Assembly (NCBI RefSeq): GCF_001669775.1
Contig: NZ_LXWK01000018.1
Span: 62,001-126,000 of the forward strand
Reading direction: 5' to 3'
DNA length: 64,000 bases
From: Rheinheimera sp. SA_1
Lineage (GTDB): Bacteria; Pseudomonadota; Gammaproteobacteria; Enterobacterales; Alteromonadaceae
Positions 36,756 through 46,313 of the stretch are shown one piece after another. The position numbers and the translations under genes are program-made. Every line of letters begins with the position of its first letter. The stretch's first letter is position 1. Below the pieces are notes generated by a model. It did not search any database. It saw only the letters and a program-made list of their open reading frames with translations, and was not told the origin of the DNA.

Positions 36756-36807
36756 GGGGTCAGAGTCAATTGTTAACAGAAATCTGTTAACAATTGACTC
36801 TGACCCC
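36756..36807. repeat. 52-bp perfect inverted repeat (REP-like), copy 2
   Basis: Same 23-base arms as copy 1 (GGGGTCAGAGTCAATTG...), loop GAAATC. It lies between the convergent ends of the J-domain operon and the giant repeat-protein gene, 10 bases after the former's stop. Together with copy 1 it brackets about 3.4 kb that hold rfbC and the J-domain operon. Confidence 0.9.
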
Positions 36808-36832: not shown

Positions 36833-39800
36833 TTAAAACTGATACCTCAAACTCAACAACCAGCTGTTGACATCATTGGCTGCCAGATTGATTTGCTGAT
36901 AGCCACCACCCAGTTGCCAATCATTGGTGAGTTGATATTGCAGTTGTAATCCAAGCATCCAGTCATTGCCGTCAGATTCGGTGCGAAGCACGGTATTATT
37001 CACCCGGCTTTCAATCTCGGAATCCCAAAAAAACACCCCTACCGGTAATTCGAGGCGCAGCCTGTTATCTTGCCACAAGGTAAACCGAAACGCCGCACTC
37101 ACACCATCAACCAGCACCGGACTCACCGCTTTGAGCAATTCATGGTATTGACCGGGCGTCAGACTTTCACCACTGAGCTGACTGCTGGCATCCCCTAAAT
37201 CCTGATAACCCAACTCAATCGCGACCGACGGATGCAGTTGATATCCCAAAGCAACGCCGTAGGAAAAATCACTTTTATCAAAGTCGGTGATCGCGGTACC
37301 GGAAGGAAGCCCTGCCGCTAATGAGCTTTGCTTGCTGTCTGCACTGCTGTGACCCGCAGAGCCTTGCAGATACCAGTCAGCACTCTGGCTGATCGGGCTA
37401 AATAGCAGCATCACCGCGGCTGCGGCTCCGGCTGAACTGCGACGGAACACCGCCGCAGTTCCTAACAACAACAACGCCCATAACGTCATGCTGCCGCCGC
37501 TGGATTTGTTCTCGACCACCACTTCTTTAAAGGCCGTCACAGTGACCAGCACCTGGCCGGTTGCCGTCCCCCCCAAACCATCCGAGATGCTGTAGCTAAT
37601 GGTATCAACACCATCAAATCCGGATTTTGGGGTATAACGCAACCGCTGACCAGCTTCGATACTCACTGTTCCCTGGACGGCGGTGGCCGCAGTGACTGTC
37701 AGGTTGTTGCCGTCGACATCGGTATCATTGGTCAGCACCGCAATCACTATTGCGGTTTTGTCGTTGGTCGCAGCCACATCATTCACCGCGATCGGCGCGC
37801 TATTGCTAAAGACATCAATCACCAGCTGGCTACTTGCAGTGCCGCCTTTACCATCGGTGACGCTGTAGATCACCGTATCCAGACCGGTAAAGTCGGTATT
37901 AGGCAGATAACTTAGTTTTTGGTCAGCCAGAATCGTCACTGTGCCAAAACCACTAACCGCCTGGGTAATCGTTAAGCTATCACCATCGGCATCCGTATCA
38001 TTGGCCAGTACATTCACTACCACTGCGGTATTTTCTCTGGTCGATGCCTGATCGGCCACAGCAACTGGCAGTCTATTGCTACTGATGGCAACTGCAACGC
38101 CACCAGGGTCAACAATTGCACTATTGGCAATACCGTCAGCGTCATTCGGACCACCGTCTTCTACCCGAACCTGCACACACCAGTGACCTTCGGTTAAACC
38201 AGCAGTCCAGGCGGCATCACCCGGCGGCGGACAGAAACCACGTTCACCTTGGGTACTGGAGACTGAGTTTTGCCCGTTGCTGACAAAATCTTTCCAGCCG
38301 GTGGCATCGTTAAATTTACGATAAATTGCATTGGCCGGTACCGGTAACCGCTGTGGCAAGACCAGACTGTAGCTTTTACCCTGCTCTGGCAAACCATAGG
38401 CAATAAAGTCAAAGATACCGCCAATATTGACCGCCGATGTATCGGTATCGACTGCATCGTTTTCAATTTTCAGACCACCGGCATCCGTTTCAGCAGCCAC
38501 AGTACCTAAACGTAGACAGACCCCGGGTTCACCTTCGGCCACGAACTCAGTCTGCCCTAACAATTCGGTCGGCATCACATTACATTCGCTGATCGCATCC
38601 TGATAATCAGGGATACCATCACCATCCGAATCAGCAAACCCTTCCTGATTGTCAGGGACCAAATCGCCGTCAACGTCACTGCTACCCAATACCGGCAGAC
38701 TAGGTCTGACGACAATAAATACTCGGGAGGTGGTCGATAAATTTGGCGAGCCATTGTCGGTAGCAGTGTAGCTAACCTGATACAAACCAGGACCCTGCTC
38801 AGCCGGATCAAAACTCAGTTCTGTATCTGCTGGAGTGACATTTTCGAGTCGGCCAAAGTCCCAACTGCCGGTCAGTTGATCCTGTGTATTGGTGTCGGTA
38901 ACAGTGGCAGTGACAGTGACCACACCATCGCCTTCACTAATCGTCAATCGGTTCAGATTATTCTGCTCGACAGCTAAGGTCACCACAGGCGCAATATTGG
39001 CTTCAGTGATCACGATACGACTACTGCGTTTGCTGCCGCGATTGACACTGCTGTCCAACGTGATATCGATATTTTCTGGCGAATCGGCGAGTCCATCCTC
39101 CAGCACGTTAAAACGAACACTTGTGCTGGTGCCGGAGCTGATTTCAGCGACACCTGAGACCAACGTATGATCATTCGCCCCGGCACTGCCACTGACCGAA
39201 TATGGCACTAACACCGGATACGAAGGTGCCGTTCCATTCAGGATCACCTCAACCACCACTTCATTGCCTTCGGTAACTAGCTGATCTTTGCTCAGAGAAA
39301 TCAACGGATTCACGCTTACCTTCTGCGCTTTAGTCGCGGTATTGCCATCCGCATCTGTGGCTTGCCAGTACACAATATGCTCGCCCGGCTCAAAGAACAG
39401 ACTGCCATTGATTAACGACACCCGCAGTCGACGGCCGTTGCGATCAACTGCAGTAGCGTTGCCAAGCGGTACCCTGGTAAAGAGCGCAGTCGCATTGACG
39501 GTGATATCCGCAGGCACAGTAATGACTGGCAGATTGGTAGCATCGCCACCGGTAATAATCAGACTGACATTGGCTGTGCCACGGCCGCCTTTGCCATCGC
39601 TGACGGTATAGCGCAAAGTGACCGGCCCTGCATACAGTTCCGGCACCGTCAGAGTTAGGCCCTGTGCATTAAAGGTAACGGTACCAACGCTCGAAGACGC
39701 ACCATCAATCGTCAGTGGATCGGTATCCACATCAGAATCGTTGGCCAAAACCGCTAACTGATACTGATTGTTGCTGGTCCGTTGCAGGTTAAAGCTGTCA

Positions 39801-42800
39801 TCAGCGGCTATCGGTTGGTCATTGACCGCCGTCACGGTAAGACTAATGGTCGCCGTATTTGAACTTAATTCAGCATCTTTGGCGATAAACCCAATACTGT
39901 CGGTGCCGTTAAAATCCTGCGCCGGGGTGTAGATCAGTAAATCACCTTGCAGAGTCGCTGTGCCATGTACAGGTTGGGCTGCAATTTCATAATTCAGCTC
40001 ATCCCCATCAGCATCCTGTGCCGTCAAAGTCAGGCTCAGCTGGCTGTCTTCCTCTGTACTGGCGGCACTGTCCGTCGCAACCGGCGCCACATTTCCTGCC
40101 ACAACTGTGAGGTTAAACGCCGCTAAACTGGTACTGGTGGTGCCATCAGACACGCTAATCACAATCCCTGAAGTTACGCCGACATCAGCGCTGGCCGGCG
40201 TACCAGACAAGGCTCCACTGCTGGTGCTAAAACTGGCCCAGGCTGGTTTATTACTGATACTAAAGGTTAAAACCGCACCTTCATCCGGATCTGAAGCTGT
40301 TGGCGTGAAGCTGTAAGGCGTTCCGACGTCGACTGAAGTTGCCGGAGTTCCGCTAATCACCGGCGACTGATTCGCCGGTTGCACCGTAATACTAAATGGT
40401 GCCAGCGCAGCGCTCTCGGTACCATCAGTGACACTGATGACAATACCGCTGATAGTACCCACATCAGCAAGCCCTGGTATACCGGTCAGCGCCCCGGAAC
40501 TGGTTGAGAAACTGGCCCAGGCTGGCTGATTACTGATACTGAACGTCAGCGTTTGTTCGTCGGCATCCGATGCTGCGGGTACAAAGCTATAAGGTGTTCC
40601 CTGCACCACAGTGGTTGCCGGTGAACCACTGATCACAGGTGCAGTATTTGGCAGTTCCGGTGTTACAGCATTCGAAGCCGCCGAAGCTGCGCCTGTCCCG
40701 ACACTATTCACCGCAACAACGGTAAAGGTGTAAGCCGTGCCATTGGTTAAGCCTGGCACTGTGACAGGTGAACTTGCGCCTGTTGCTGTCAACCCGCCAG
40801 GATTAGAAGTCACGGTGTAACCGGTAATAGCGGCACCACCGTTCGAAGCCGGGGCGGTGAACGCCACTGAAGCAGAAGCATTACCTGCGGTTGCAGTGCC
40901 GATGACTGGAGCTCCTGGTAATACCGCATTCACAGCAAAACTCCGACTCACTTGCGTTGCAGCTAAATAACTGCCGTTACCGGCCTGATCGGCATTAATA
41001 GTACAAGTACCTGCGGTAACAAAAGTCAGCACACCGATGGAGGTGATGGTACAAACTCCGGTTGTCGACGAAGTAAAGGTAGGTGTCAGACCCGAATCCG
41101 ATGTGGCAGTCAGTGTTGGGCTGGTCCCAAAGTTCTGCGCTCCCGGATTGGCAAAGGTAATGGTCTGAGCTGCGGCAGGCGTGATCGAGTTGGATGCAGC
41201 TGATGCCGAACCTGTACCTGCCGAATTGGTTGCAGTGACCGTGAAGGTATAAGCCACCCCATTGGTCAAACCGGTGACAATGATTGGTGAATTGGCGCCA
41301 GTGCCGGTCAGTCCGCCAGGATTTGCAGTCACGGTATAGCCGGTAATAGCGGCACCGCCAATACTGGCAGGTGCAGTGAAAGCGACACTTGCCTGGGTAT
41401 CACCGGCAGTTGCGGTGCCGATGGTTGGTGCTCCAGGCACTACTGCACTAACAGTAAAGGTTTGACTGACTTGTGGTGCCACCAAATATGAACCGTCGCC
41501 AGCCTGATCGGCATTGATGGTACAGCTGCCAGCAGTGACAAAAGTCAGTAAGCCGCCGCTGGTAATGGTACAAACCCCGGTGGTGGCTGAAGTGAAAGTC
41601 ACCACATAACCGCCTCCGGCTGAGGAAGTAGCGGTCAACGTTGGCGTGGTGCCAAAATTCTGAGTACCCGGATTATTAAAGGTAATGGTTTGTGGGGCGG
41701 CCGGTGTCACCGAATTGGATGCCGCCGAAGCAGCGCCTTCACCCGCGGAGTTGGTGGCGGTGACGGTAAAGGTATAAGCCAAACCATTGGTTAAGCCCGT
41801 GACCGTCACCGGCGAACTGGAACCAGTGGCAGTGGCACCACCTGGGCTGGCAGTGACGGTATAACCACTGGCAATTATTGCCGCGCCACCGGTGCTGACT
41901 GGCGCAGTGAAAGTGACGGTCGCTTCAGTATCGCCAGCAGTTGCCGTCCCAATGGTTGGTGCACCAGGCACTATCGCATTGACGGTAAAGGTTCGGCTTA
42001 CTGTGGTCGCGGCGTTCCAGGCGGAATTCCCCGCCTGATCGGCATCGATGCTACAACTACCAGCAGTAACGAAGGTCAGAGTTCCAGTACTGGTAATGGT
42101 ACAAACTCCGGTTGTCGACGAACTAAAACTAACCGCAAGCGTGGAAGATGCACTGGCTGTAGGCCCCAGATCGGGTGTTGTACCAAAGTTTTGTGCCCCA
42201 GGATTCGGAAAGGTAATGGTCTGGTCGCCTTTAGGCGTCGCCGAAGCCGAAGCGCCAGAAGCAACACTGGTGCCGATTGCGTTGGTTGCGGTCACGGTAA
42301 AGGTATAAGCAGTACCGTTGGTTAAGCCCGTCACTGCGATAGGGGATGTGGTAAAACCAAAACCACCGGCTGAAATACCGCCGGGGTTCGAAGTGACGGT
42401 ATACCCGGTGATTGCGGCACCACCATTACTGCCCGGGGCACTAAAAGCTACAGACACTTGACCATCACCTGCGGTTGCGGCGCCGATAGTCGGGGCATCA
42501 GGTGCCGATAAGGCATTGCTTGTAGTGATGCCATTGCCGGTTAAATCAGCCACCACCACAGCAGCATCTGCACCCGCAGTCCAATCTTCAGCTGCCGCAA
42601 GATTATAAGTTGTAGCATCTACTGAGCTGGTGCCGTTTTTATTCAGTATTAAGTTCACGGCATTGCGGTCTGTCGCACTCAAGGTCAAGGTAAAACTGCT
42701 ACCAGAAGTAATTTCTACATCTGCGGTATCGGTCAGGCTATAAGTTGCAGCACCTTCGCCGGTCAAAGTAAATTTATTGGCAACGACGTCGTTGGTTGCA

Positions 42801-44815
42801 CCCGCCAGTTTAAGAAAACCAGCGCCGGTCACTACCAGTGCACCTGTTGCGGCATTATAAGTGGCACTGGTCACAGTCGGCACCGCTACATTGCTGACGG
42901 TAATACCATTGCCAGTTAGATCAGCAATCATGACTGCAGCATCCGCACCTGCCTGCCAATCTTCGGCAGCAGCCAGATTGTAGGTGGTGGCACCGGTTGA
43001 TGAGGTGCCATTTTTATTCAGCATTTGGTTTATTGCGGACCTGTCTGTTGCGCTGAAGGTCAGGGCAAAGCCAGTACCAGAAGAGATTTCAACATTCGAG
43101 GTATCCGTCAGGGTATAAGTGCTGCCACCTTCACCTGTCAGTGTAAATTTATTGGCAACAATATCGTTGCTGGCACCACTGGCCATTTTCAAACCAGAGC
43201 CAGTAACTGTGAGTACGCCGGTGCTCGCATCATAAGTCGCCGATGTCACTGCAGGTACCGCCACATTAGAGACCGTTATCCCATTTCCGGTAAGGTCCGC
43301 TGTCGCCGCCGAGTCTGCGATAAAACCAGCGGCCCCGGCCAGATTGTATGTGGTGCCACCGGTAGAACTGGTGCCATTTTTGTTCACAATCAGATTCACT
43401 GCTGCGCGATCAGTAGCACTGAGCGTCAGCGTAAATGCCGTAGCCGAAGATATTTCGACATTGGCGGTATCGGTCAGCGTGTAAGTGCTGCCCCCTTCGC
43501 CATTCAAGGTGAATTTATTGGCGACAACATCATTCGTTGCGCCGCCTGTTGCAGTGAAGTTGGTACCGGTAACGACCAATGCACCGGTGTTGGCGTTGTA
43601 GGTAGCAGACGTGATGGTTGGGGGCGGGACTACTGCATCTGCAAACACCAACTCATCCAGACTCACATACATGAGCTGATTACTACCGTCAGTAATCCTG
43701 ATCTGATCCACGTTCTGAAATTTAGCTGGCGTCAGGCCGTTTAGCTGCGTGTAATCATTATAAAAACTAACTGAGTTATCAATAGCTAATGTTTCACTGC
43801 CGGTAGATACCCCATCTCTAAACCCCTCAAATTTTATATGGGTATGTGCACCCAGATAATTGACAACCCGAATCCCCTCAAAGGAAAAATCTTCGCCACC
43901 CTGTGTTCTGATCACCGTCGACGCCGCGTCCCCTGCATCAGGAACCACACCGTCATCAATTTCATCTAAGCCATTATTGGCGATATCTGCCCAAAACTCC
44001 CAATGTTCGCCGGTATTGGTATCTGTCCCCAAGTTTGCAGCGTAAATTTCTATCACCACACCAGGAATATCAGCCGAATTCGCTTCGCCATCTGTGACCG
44101 TAGTACCAAGTACGTCTCCATTCGCTACACCGGAAAAATTCATTGAACCGGAAAACAAGCGACTGGCATACAACTGCCGGGCTTTGGCGGAAAAAGGTAT
44201 TTGCGTCTGAATATCGCCATAACCAGATTCCAGTGCCCAGTCTGCATTTTTCGCAGCGGCACCAGTGGCATTCGACGATGCAGCGACATCTGCTGAAGTC
44301 AGTTGTGCCAACTGACGGATAAAAGCGTCACCACGGCTGTCACGAGCAACATCACAACCATAAATAAGAATATCGCCGTCTTGCAGCAGACTGGCGCCTA
44401 TTTGTTTGAATTCTTTGCTATATCCCGCCACATTTGTCTGGTCGATGATGGTACTACCCAGTCTTATCTGCCCCTGCCCCCCATGGCTCACCACATGAAG
44501 TGCCGCGATATTTGTTCGATTTGCCAGTTGTTGCGCCATAAAAGCCACGCCATCCTGACCAGATGGCAGAAACACCACTTCAACAGCTGGGTCTAACTGT
44601 TCCAGCAGTGTCGAGGCATCTGGTACTGCCGCATCGACAAAGACAATTTCTGGCGCAGGCATTACATGAATATCAAGAGGTGATGCCTGCACTGGATTTA
44701 ACATCGCTAAGATAAAGCAACACATCCATGCAAAACCACGACTAATGCGCCTACCTAACCGGAGTGAATGAAGGGGTTTCATATAAGCAACTGGGATTGA
44801 CTTGCACCCTGACAT
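36833..44815 (-). CDS. Giant DUF4347 multi-domain surface protein with a terminal outer-membrane barrel
   Basis: About 2660 residues from the ATG at 44815, which follows AGGAG at 8 bases. A long signal peptide ends LNPVQA. In order: DUF4347 at about 55-200 ([30 protein letters not shown]); a unique domain to about 395; three Ig-like repeats of about 122 residues; a stretch of alternating Fn3-like ([11 protein letters not shown]) and [17 protein letters not shown] units; two putative-Ig (He_PIG-like) and several cadherin-like units; a Calx-beta-like unit; DxDGDG calcium loops; a choice-of-anchor-like domain; two more cadherin-like units; a GG-hydrophobic-RR segment near 2440-2459; a second signal-like stretch; and an OmpA-like 8-strand barrel of about 181 residues ending YQF. 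It is probably an adhesin or biofilm matrix protein. See findings on the fusion. Confidence 0.85.
42515..43620 (-). repeat. Three tandem in-frame repeats of about 370 bp inside the giant gene
   Basis: Each unit encodes SATYxAxTGxLVVTG, then [23 protein letters not shown] and an [19 protein letters not shown] core of an Ig-like domain. Unit starts are near 43620, 43255 and 42880 on the minus strand. DNA identity is high enough that recombination could change the copy number. Confidence 0.8.
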
Positions 44816-44884
44816 GTTAACGCTCCTGGCAAATTGCCTTCCAACCACAGCCGGAAAGGTGATGAGTAAATATCAAAAACGACT

Positions 44885-44945: not shown

Positions 44946-45581
44946 CTACCCGTGCGAAGGGTATATCCCCACTAAAGCGATGATAAAATTCATGCCCAGA
45001 TACGGACTTGTAATAGGAACGGGCAACCCACCTCCCACCGGGTTTATCGTTACTGACCCAGCAGTTGTCACGCTACCATGTATACCACCAAGGTTTGCTT
45101 TGGTTGCATCTGGAGCTGTTGCGGTAAAAAGACCATTCACAGCTGCATTGGTTGGCCCGACTTTCGCCGTCATCGCAGACAGGTAGCTGGTATTACCAGG
45201 CGTTGGAGGTACCATGGCAGCAGCTGTCGTCGTCGCTAGATCCAAGGTTGCGGTCACCGCACTAACAGCGCCGGTAAACTGTGCTGTTGGTGCATGTATC
45301 GGCAGTTGTGCTGTGGTTAGGCTGACACTTTCATGACCGGCCATTTGCCCTAAAGCGATATAACTTAAACCAGCACCAGTCCCTGTTCCAACCGGACTGC
45401 GACTTTGTAAATTCGGCAAACCAAAGGTCGTATGGCCATCTCCGCCATAATTGGTCCCTAAGATAGAAAACAATGCAGCATTGCTCGCAATGGCCAGAAG
45501 CTGCCCTTGACAAAACGCCCAGCCATTCGGAGCAAAAGTACCGGCAAACATGCGGATTTCACCAATAAACGGATCAGACAT
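44946..45581 (-). CDS. Tail-collar/microcystin-dependent-like protein
   Basis: About 211 residues from the ATG at 45581, which follows AAGGAGAG. MSDPFIGEIRMFAGTFAPNG and WAFCQGQLLAIASNAALFS, then LGTNYGGDGHTTFGLPNLQ and RSPVGTGTGAGL, are the phage tail-collar (PF07484-like) pattern. The C-terminal 110 residues are low-complexity Ala/Thr/Val with IPxPxPITSPYLGMNFIIAL at the end, as in the bacterial MdpA/MdpB group. These bacterial relatives are found outside prophages; their task is not known. It lies just upstream of the giant surface protein, in the same direction but behind a terminator-like hairpin. Confidence 0.85.
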   Translation of the reverse strand: MSDPFIGEIRMFAGTFAPNGWAFCQGQLLAIASNAALFSILGTNYGGDGHTTFGLPNLQSRSPVGTGTGAGLSYIALGQMAGHESVSLTTAQLPIHAPTAQFTGAVSAVTATLDLATTTAAAMVPPTPGNTSYLSAMTAKVGPTNAAVNGLFTATAPDATKANLGGIHGSVTTAGSVTINPVGGGLPVPITSPYLGMNFIIALVGIYPSHG

Positions 45582-45794
45582 TCGAACTCTCCTTAGTAAG
45601 GTTTTGGTGCGGTTTGGTCGTGCCAAACCATTTTCAAAACAATGCCCGACAATTGGATGCGTTACTACCTGCCTGCGTCCGCTGCTGGCTTGCTTTGGTG
45701 GGTTAAAGTCTCACCACATTGTTGAATGGTGAGTCATTCAAAAATTTGCTTAAAAAACAAACTCCATCAACCGTAGATCAAATCAGGAAAAACA

Positions 45795-46313
45795 TCAACC
45801 CGGCACCGAATCAGAAACATCTGATGGTTGCCAATACAGCTGCTCATAGCCACCTGCCCCCGCCACTGACTTAAAATCATGCCGCAGATAAAATTGGCAG
45901 GCGCCGGTATTTTGTTGATCCACCAGCAAACTAATCGCCAATTGCTGTTGTCGTGCATACTGCTGCAAAAACTTGATCAATTCACTGCCAAAGCCCCGAC
46001 CACAATGGTTGGGCAAAAATGCCAGATCTGTAAGGTGCAAATTTTCAGGATGCCGCACCACGATCAGTCTGCCAACCGGTTCGGCATGACACAGCAGTAA
46101 GTAACTATCGGGTTTGGGGGATTGTTGCAGGTAACTCTGTTGCTGCAGCTGATATTGCTGTTGCAGCAATTGCTGAACCATTGGTTCAGGCAACCCACAG
46201 TGTTCGAAATATCGATGATTGGCGGCAAAAAGCTGCTGAAAAAAAGCTTCGTCTGCGGGAGTTGCAAGTCGAAAGGACAGCCCGGAATCCTTACAACTCA
46301 ACGATAGCTGCAT
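45795..46313 (-). CDS. GNAT family N-acetyltransferase
   Basis: A 172-residue acetyltransferase. DLAFLPNHCGRGFGSELI at about 90-107 is motif A with the R/Q-x-x-G-x-G/A turn, and QQNTGACQFYLRHDFK near 130-145 completes the fold. The first half has a Gln-rich helix (MVQQLLQQQYQLQQQ at about 44-58). The acceptor is unknown. A decayed partial copy of its N-terminal third lies at 47541-47690 in the same orientation, so it was duplicated. The stretch from 45582 to 45794 holds nothing that I recognise. Confidence 0.85.
   Translation of the reverse strand: MQLSLSCKDSGLSFRLATPADEAFFQQLFAANHRYFEHCGLPEPMVQQLLQQQYQLQQQSYLQQSPKPDSYLLLCHAEPVGRLIVVRHPENLHLTDLAFLPNHCGRGFGSELIKFLQQYARQQQLAISLLVDQQNTGACQFYLRHDFKSVAGAGGYEQLYWQPSDVSDSVPG

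Follow-up and report, generated by a model that had tools for sequence, protein, structure and literature searches.

The giant gene analysed here, from Rheinheimera sp. SA_1, encodes in one open frame a large repeat protein, an internal GlyGly-CTERM sorting signal, a second signal-peptide-like segment and an OmpA-type outer-membrane barrel. This anatomy is conserved within the genus and recurs across the order and the class, and some relatives hold the same two parts as touching genes. We consider it probable (roughly 0.65) that the product is a polyprotein: rhombosortase would cut it at the GG and signal peptidase at the second signal, yielding a surface protein and a barrel, one for one. Throughout, the window is the whole stretch of 64,000 nucleotides that was analysed (contig NZ_LXWK01000018.1, positions 62,001 to 126,000).

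Results

Anatomy of the giant protein

The features of the giant gene are listed in Table 1. By inspection, the ATG at 44782 (residue 23) was preferred as the start over the GTG chosen by the ORF caller. The DUF4347 domain contains HVVSHG and YGCDVA motifs, which we take to resemble the His/Cys pair of clan CD cysteine peptidases. Between this domain and the choice-of-anchor U domain, profile searches identified fn3, Ig-like and cadherin-like repeats; relatives of the choice-of-anchor U domain were present in 61 of 70 sources in a phmmer search.

Table 1 Features of the giant gene, in window positions.
Feature	Position	Strand	Residues	Basis and remarks
Whole open frame	36833..44848	-		2671 aa as called from GTG; translation
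Likely true start ATG and N-terminal signal peptide MKPLHSL...LNPVQA	44684..44782	-	23-55	By inspection
DUF4347 domain	44162..44647	-	68-229	Profile match, E 2.3e-53
Choice-of-anchor U domain	38090..38419	-	2144-2253	33.3 bits, cut-off 32
Last cadherin-like/tandem-95 repeat ahead of the joint	37535..37804	-	2349-2438	Profile search
Internal GlyGly-CTERM signal: SGG motif, first hydrophobic helix, RR	37439..37501	-	2450-2470	TIGR03501 over cut-off
Second, internal signal-peptide-like segment	37379..37438	-	2471-2490	Possible signal peptidase I site SQS|A or SQSA|D
OmpA-type outer-membrane barrel ending in F	36836..37378	-	2491-2671	Read as 8-stranded

A phage-tail-collar gene and a GNAT gene lie directly upstream of the giant gene (44946-46313), and the three form a conserved neighbourhood. 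The collar gene has relatives in 17 of 70 sources, in some cases as two or three tandem copies, and in at least ten of these 17 it ends no more than ~140 nt from the giant frame on the same strand; relatives of the GNAT gene were found in 12 of the 70. At the other end, a perfect 25-nt inverted repeat with a 2-nt spacer (36756-36807, GGGGTCAGAGTCAATTGTTAACAGA) separates the stop of the giant gene from a convergent gene, and may be either a terminator or a mobile repeat.

The original prediction had placed a GlyGly-CTERM layout near residue 2440. This was confirmed, with the GG at G2451-G2452 of the translation. The TIGR03501 profile scored 17.1 bits on the whole protein, 21.0 bits on a 110-aa segment and 23.7 bits in the genome search, all over the cut-off of 15.5. 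The genome holds three such matches, the other two of which are terminal, each ending its open reading frame. The signal of the giant protein is not at the extreme C-terminus; because 201 residues come after it, we class it as an internal variant of GlyGly-CTERM rather than a plain TIGR03501 member. The same genome encodes a rhombosortase (167.7 bits in a profile search; cut-off, 84) and the type II secretion protein GspD (544 bits).

As judged by inspection, the second segment has a basic n-region, a hydrophobic core and small residues at -3/-1. The domain behind it matches OmpA_membrane (PF01389) with 36.4 bits (gathering score, 21), and its AlphaFold model (mean pLDDT 72.3, pTM 0.67) matches OmpA across its whole length (residues 45-230 of the model). 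The expectation of a signal-like stretch followed by a complete OmpA-like barrel ending in YQF thus held true. DSSP assigned ten strand elements to the model, two of them short, and we read the predicted barrel as eight-stranded. The window barrel differs from OmpA (PF01389) and from AcfA-like small barrels (NF033908) in being the tail of a giant surface protein; NF033908 gave the window protein only 26.3 bits against a cut-off of 100, and this copy of the barrel carries no peptidoglycan-binding domain. Elsewhere, an extra 140-240 residues follow the barrel in three fused loci (L104, L107 and L138) and three split loci (L110, L116 and L119), and by eye the tails of the three fused ones resemble the OmpA peptidoglycan-binding domain.

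Autotransporters (type V secretion) combine a large N-terminal passenger with a 12-stranded C-terminal barrel, with no helices between the two. The window chain likewise has a large N-terminal part and a C-terminal barrel; it differs in its small OmpA-type barrel and its two-helix hairpin. At 181 residues, the barrel is OmpA-like in size and falls short of the 12-stranded translocator of a type Va autotransporter, and this class was rejected on barrel size and the intervening helices.

The charges around the two helices, taken together with the split relatives described below, suggest a hairpin topology. With the basic loop inside, the first helix would run out-to-in and the second in-to-out, so that the giant part and the barrel would both be periplasmic.

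Conservation of the joint

The joint is intact in all seven loci from named records (five titled Rheinheimera and two gammaproteobacterial MAGs), where the 255-aa tail is complete in one frame and 62-87% identical. A tail search matched 24 of 60 relatives. Within the genus, 18 of 22 genomes, the window's own included, carry the fused form with the joint in one open frame; among the exceptions, G003 and G010 gave no match, G009 has a terminal GG protein only and G017 a barrel fragment only. In G020, the copy beside the same downstream gene as the window's is barrel-less and ends in a terminal GG signal. Since the joint is unbroken in 7/7 named-record loci and 18/22 genomes of the genus, the fusion is not a product of chance.

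An alignment of 19 fused tails, down to 32% identity, showed that N31, S33, G35, G36, R53 and the final F never vary, in contrast to the two helices, which drift. Over nine pairs, and where defined, pN/pS was 0-0.48 for the GG-helix-RR stretch, 0-0.38 for the second signal and 0.06-0.24 for the barrel; the joint offers few sites and single values are rough. These ratios indicate that purifying selection acts throughout the joint. The second signal is under weaker constraint than the barrel in several pairs (for example, 0.37 vs 0.15), and for this reason we slightly lowered our estimate for a polyprotein cut at both sites and slightly raised that for a cut by signal peptidase alone, which is discussed below.

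Fused forms across the order and class

A search with the tail alignment matched 63 of 394 genomes of the order and 62 of 369 genomes of the class; many of the weak matches look like ordinary OmpA-type barrels. Inspection of 69 stretches from the order sample identified 50 fused barrels, the window's included, spanning ten family codes of the order. Some of these 50 rows share a genome (two each in G274, G228 and G134, for example), and among them are also the near copies L120-L122 and L134 (SSGGSSGGW and WRRR), the last of which the hairpin-anatomy pattern missed. A fused form peculiar to the window's genome is therefore not supported: the form is widespread and under purifying selection.

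Nearly all fused loci keep the same order of parts, namely GG, helix, basic loop, helix, small residues and barrel. A strict hairpin test (helix, basic loop, helix) was passed by 45 of the 50 fused loci, whereas of 9800 control windows drawn from these proteins 20 passed; L134, L077, L094 and L085 failed it narrowly. The loop between the two helices holds two or more basic residues in 45/50 loci. L117 (G134:C95) has a single GG helix followed directly by the barrel, the second helix being missing, a layout that would place the barrel on the wrong side of the membrane. Behind the second helix, a loose signal peptidase motif is present in 45/50 fused loci vs 5711/9800 control stretches (58%), which is only moderately above background.

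The class census covered 19 loci from other orders (L150-L168): 8 were hairpin fusions, 3 were repeat-to-barrel proteins lacking the hairpin, 3 were split pairs and 5 were of other kinds. Further forms may exist among the weaker class matches.

Co-occurrence with rhombosortase

Rhombosortase scored over its cut-off in 57 of 59 genomes with the fused form (20/20 in the relatives' sample, 29/31 in the order sample and 8/8 outside the order), compared with a class background of 124/369. For the 8/8 outside the order, p is 1.3e-4, with kinship ignored and the 19 class loci as scope. Inside the order, co-occurrence carries little weight because rhombosortase is nearly universal there (51 of 60 relatives). 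At E<=1e-20, rhombosortase was not found in two fused genomes, G134 (99% complete) and G196 (80% complete), nor in the hairpin-less genome G521; it was found in the hairpin-less G778 and G480. G727 has two rhombosortase genes, one of which begins 41 nt after a fused 691-aa gene on the same strand. According to the available text of Haft and Varghese (PMC3237569), the target is adjacent to rhombosortase in most genomes with a single target. Separately, G706:C3:145598-147249 contains a rhombosortase gene and, ~600 nt away on the other strand, an OmpA-like barrel match.

These data bear on whether the GG site is cut at all. Signal peptidase could act alone, the GG helix being a mere stop-transfer segment and the giant protein either residing in the inner membrane or being cut elsewhere by GlpG. 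A TIGR03501 search at E<=1 gave a match in 36 of 58 tails, in favour of a cut at the GG, and reported none in the other 22, as processing by signal peptidase alone would allow; such a scheme would also suit G134, which is fused and yielded no rhombosortase at E<=1e-20, and the accessible text of PMC13393428 describes cutting of VesB by GlpG when RssP is absent. The GG and the neighbouring N and S are nonetheless invariant in the 19 tails, rhombosortase accompanies nearly every fused genome and adjoins the fused gene in G727, and the barrel-less relatives L034 and L036 end in a terminal GG-like signal. We thus regard processing by signal peptidase alone as unlikely, and as the alternative that survives best.

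Hairpin-less and split forms

The original prediction proposed that the fused chain could tether itself through the barrel, in which case the whole chain would stay intact and the C-terminal barrel would anchor the giant protein in the outer membrane. Outside the order, the repeats of L155 (G521), L162 (G778) and L166 (G480) lead directly to a barrel of this kind, with neither a GG signal nor helices in between. These loci combine the parts in another way and show that a repeat-barrel chain can exist uncut. In 45/50 fused loci, however, two hydrophobic helices with a basic loop intervene, and these would need to cross the periplasm uncleaved. The N-terminus of the OmpA barrel faces the periplasm, so a passenger fused to it would point inward, which also argues against a tether. 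The GG and the R are invariant, and the same two parts are separate genes in relatives. The tether was accordingly not supported, and we think it quite unlikely.

Split pairs were identified in eight genomes of the order sample (G402, G121, G111, G178, G385, G403, G127 and G183). In each, the barrel has a frame of its own, with an ATG at -5 to +4 nt that overlaps or abuts the stop of the GG gene. The coupled ATG, picked by script as the start codon nearest to the GG stop, is the first of the barrel frame in 7/8 pairs; L115 has earlier starts. The split barrel genes begin with their own signal-peptide-like N-terminus, at the place of the second signal of the fused protein. Among the fused loci, L086, L087, L105 and L107 retain an apparent remnant of such a barrel start. 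Three more split pairs occur in the class genomes G600, G429 and G691, and G385 carries both forms, one copy fused and one split. The original prediction had seen two genes joined in frame and pointed to relatives as the place to look for them apart; these overlapping or abutting pairs, eight in the order and three more in the class, bear it out. The 13 non-fused barrel rows of the order sample comprised the 8 coupled pairs, 1 duplicate of one of them, 1 fragment and 3 others; these last 3 had no GG gene upstream in the DNA examined, L109 lying near a contig end.

In a tree of 58 barrels (47 fused, 8 split and 3 alone), about five changes between fused and split states are needed, and the starred branches force at least four changes for the split label. 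The tree leaves out L102 (a duplicate), L143 (a fragment), L084 (at a contig end) and, as near copies of L121, both L120 and L122; a second weak match in L112 was also disregarded. Because the root was not inferred, fusion and fission fit this tree alike.

The joint could also harbour a start codon from which most of the barrel is translated, the fused product being minor. The split form has its own ATG at this place, and in some fused genes the second signal still begins with a Met. The count of a Met between the helices (23/49) is inflated by Met residues that end the first helix, and only single cases were relied on. No conserved Met precedes the second helix in the window and its near kin, where this helix directly adjoins the basic residues. 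An internal start as the main source of the barrel is therefore improbable.

That many relatives carry the same internal segment in a single protein, which the original prediction had counted against it, refutes only a recent or accidental fusion; the joining of two genes stands. Finally, a sequencing or assembly error has a negligible chance, as nothing was found in its favour and independent named-record assemblies and many further genomes share the in-frame joint; together with the invariant residues and the pN/pS values, this rules out a frameshift, an assembly error and a recent accidental fusion.

Discussion

In the polyprotein that we favour, the N-terminal signal peptide would direct the giant repeat protein into the Sec pathway. 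Transfer would be halted by the internal GG helix, leaving the RR inside, and the second helix would re-enter the membrane as an internal signal peptide and carry the barrel to the periplasm. Rhombosortase would then cut at the GG and ready the large part for the surface, possibly by type II secretion as for VesB, while a signal peptidase I cut after the second helix would free the barrel for insertion by BAM. The small hairpin left over would be discarded. One gene would in this way do what some relatives do with two touching genes, giving two mature proteins that resemble those of the split pairs and may act together or simply be made together. For VesB, the available text of PMC6219818 describes that the second Gly becomes exposed once rhombosortase has cut and, ahead of type II export, is joined to a moiety containing glycerophosphoethanolamine, and that of PMC13393428 that GlyGly-CTERM can be moved between proteins.

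The window protein shares several characters with GlyGly-CTERM/rhombosortase substrates (TIGR03501; VesB of Vibrio cholerae). These include the SGGS motif, one helix and basic residues, a large protein with an N-terminal signal peptide, and rhombosortase and the type II secretin in the genome. It differs in that its signal is internal, with 201 residues, a second signal and a barrel to follow. By contrast, the available text of Haft and Varghese (2011) defines GlyGly-CTERM at the protein C-terminus, and records that in none of 219 non-redundant proteins was a helix predicted to lie between signal peptide and GG region (PMC3237569). The words 'internal', 'barrel' and 'fused' are absent from the text of PMC3237569, as are 'internal' and 'barrel' from that of PMC13393428. 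Among the GlyGly-CTERM and rhombosortase papers listed, including those found with beta-barrel or OmpA, titles and abstract openings contain no report of an internal GlyGly-CTERM. Here a signal defined as C-terminal lies inside the protein and is conserved. This suggests that a helix with more protein after it can be a substrate of rhombosortase.

Few bacterial examples are known of cellular polyproteins that contain an internal signal peptide. One is the cytochrome b/c1 protein FbcH of Bradyrhizobium, a bacterial polyprotein whose internal signal peptide is cut by signal peptidase, as proposed for the window protein. FbcH differs in giving respiratory subunits of the inner membrane, and it has no sorting signal, rhomboid or outer-membrane barrel.

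More tentatively, and with odds that we put somewhat below even, the fused genes may represent a widespread gammaproteobacterial polyprotein system. In such a system, two membrane-embedded proteases would release a rhombosortase-sorted giant surface protein and a dedicated barrel in a strict 1:1 ratio, with the barrel serving as receptor, anchor or exit partner. If true, GlyGly-CTERM sorting would have an outer-membrane partner that goes unnamed in the portions of the literature examined. Collectively, the fused and split forms suggest that some rhombosortase substrates have a barrel partner, and such a partner would be a testable answer to how these proteins are held or received at the outer membrane.
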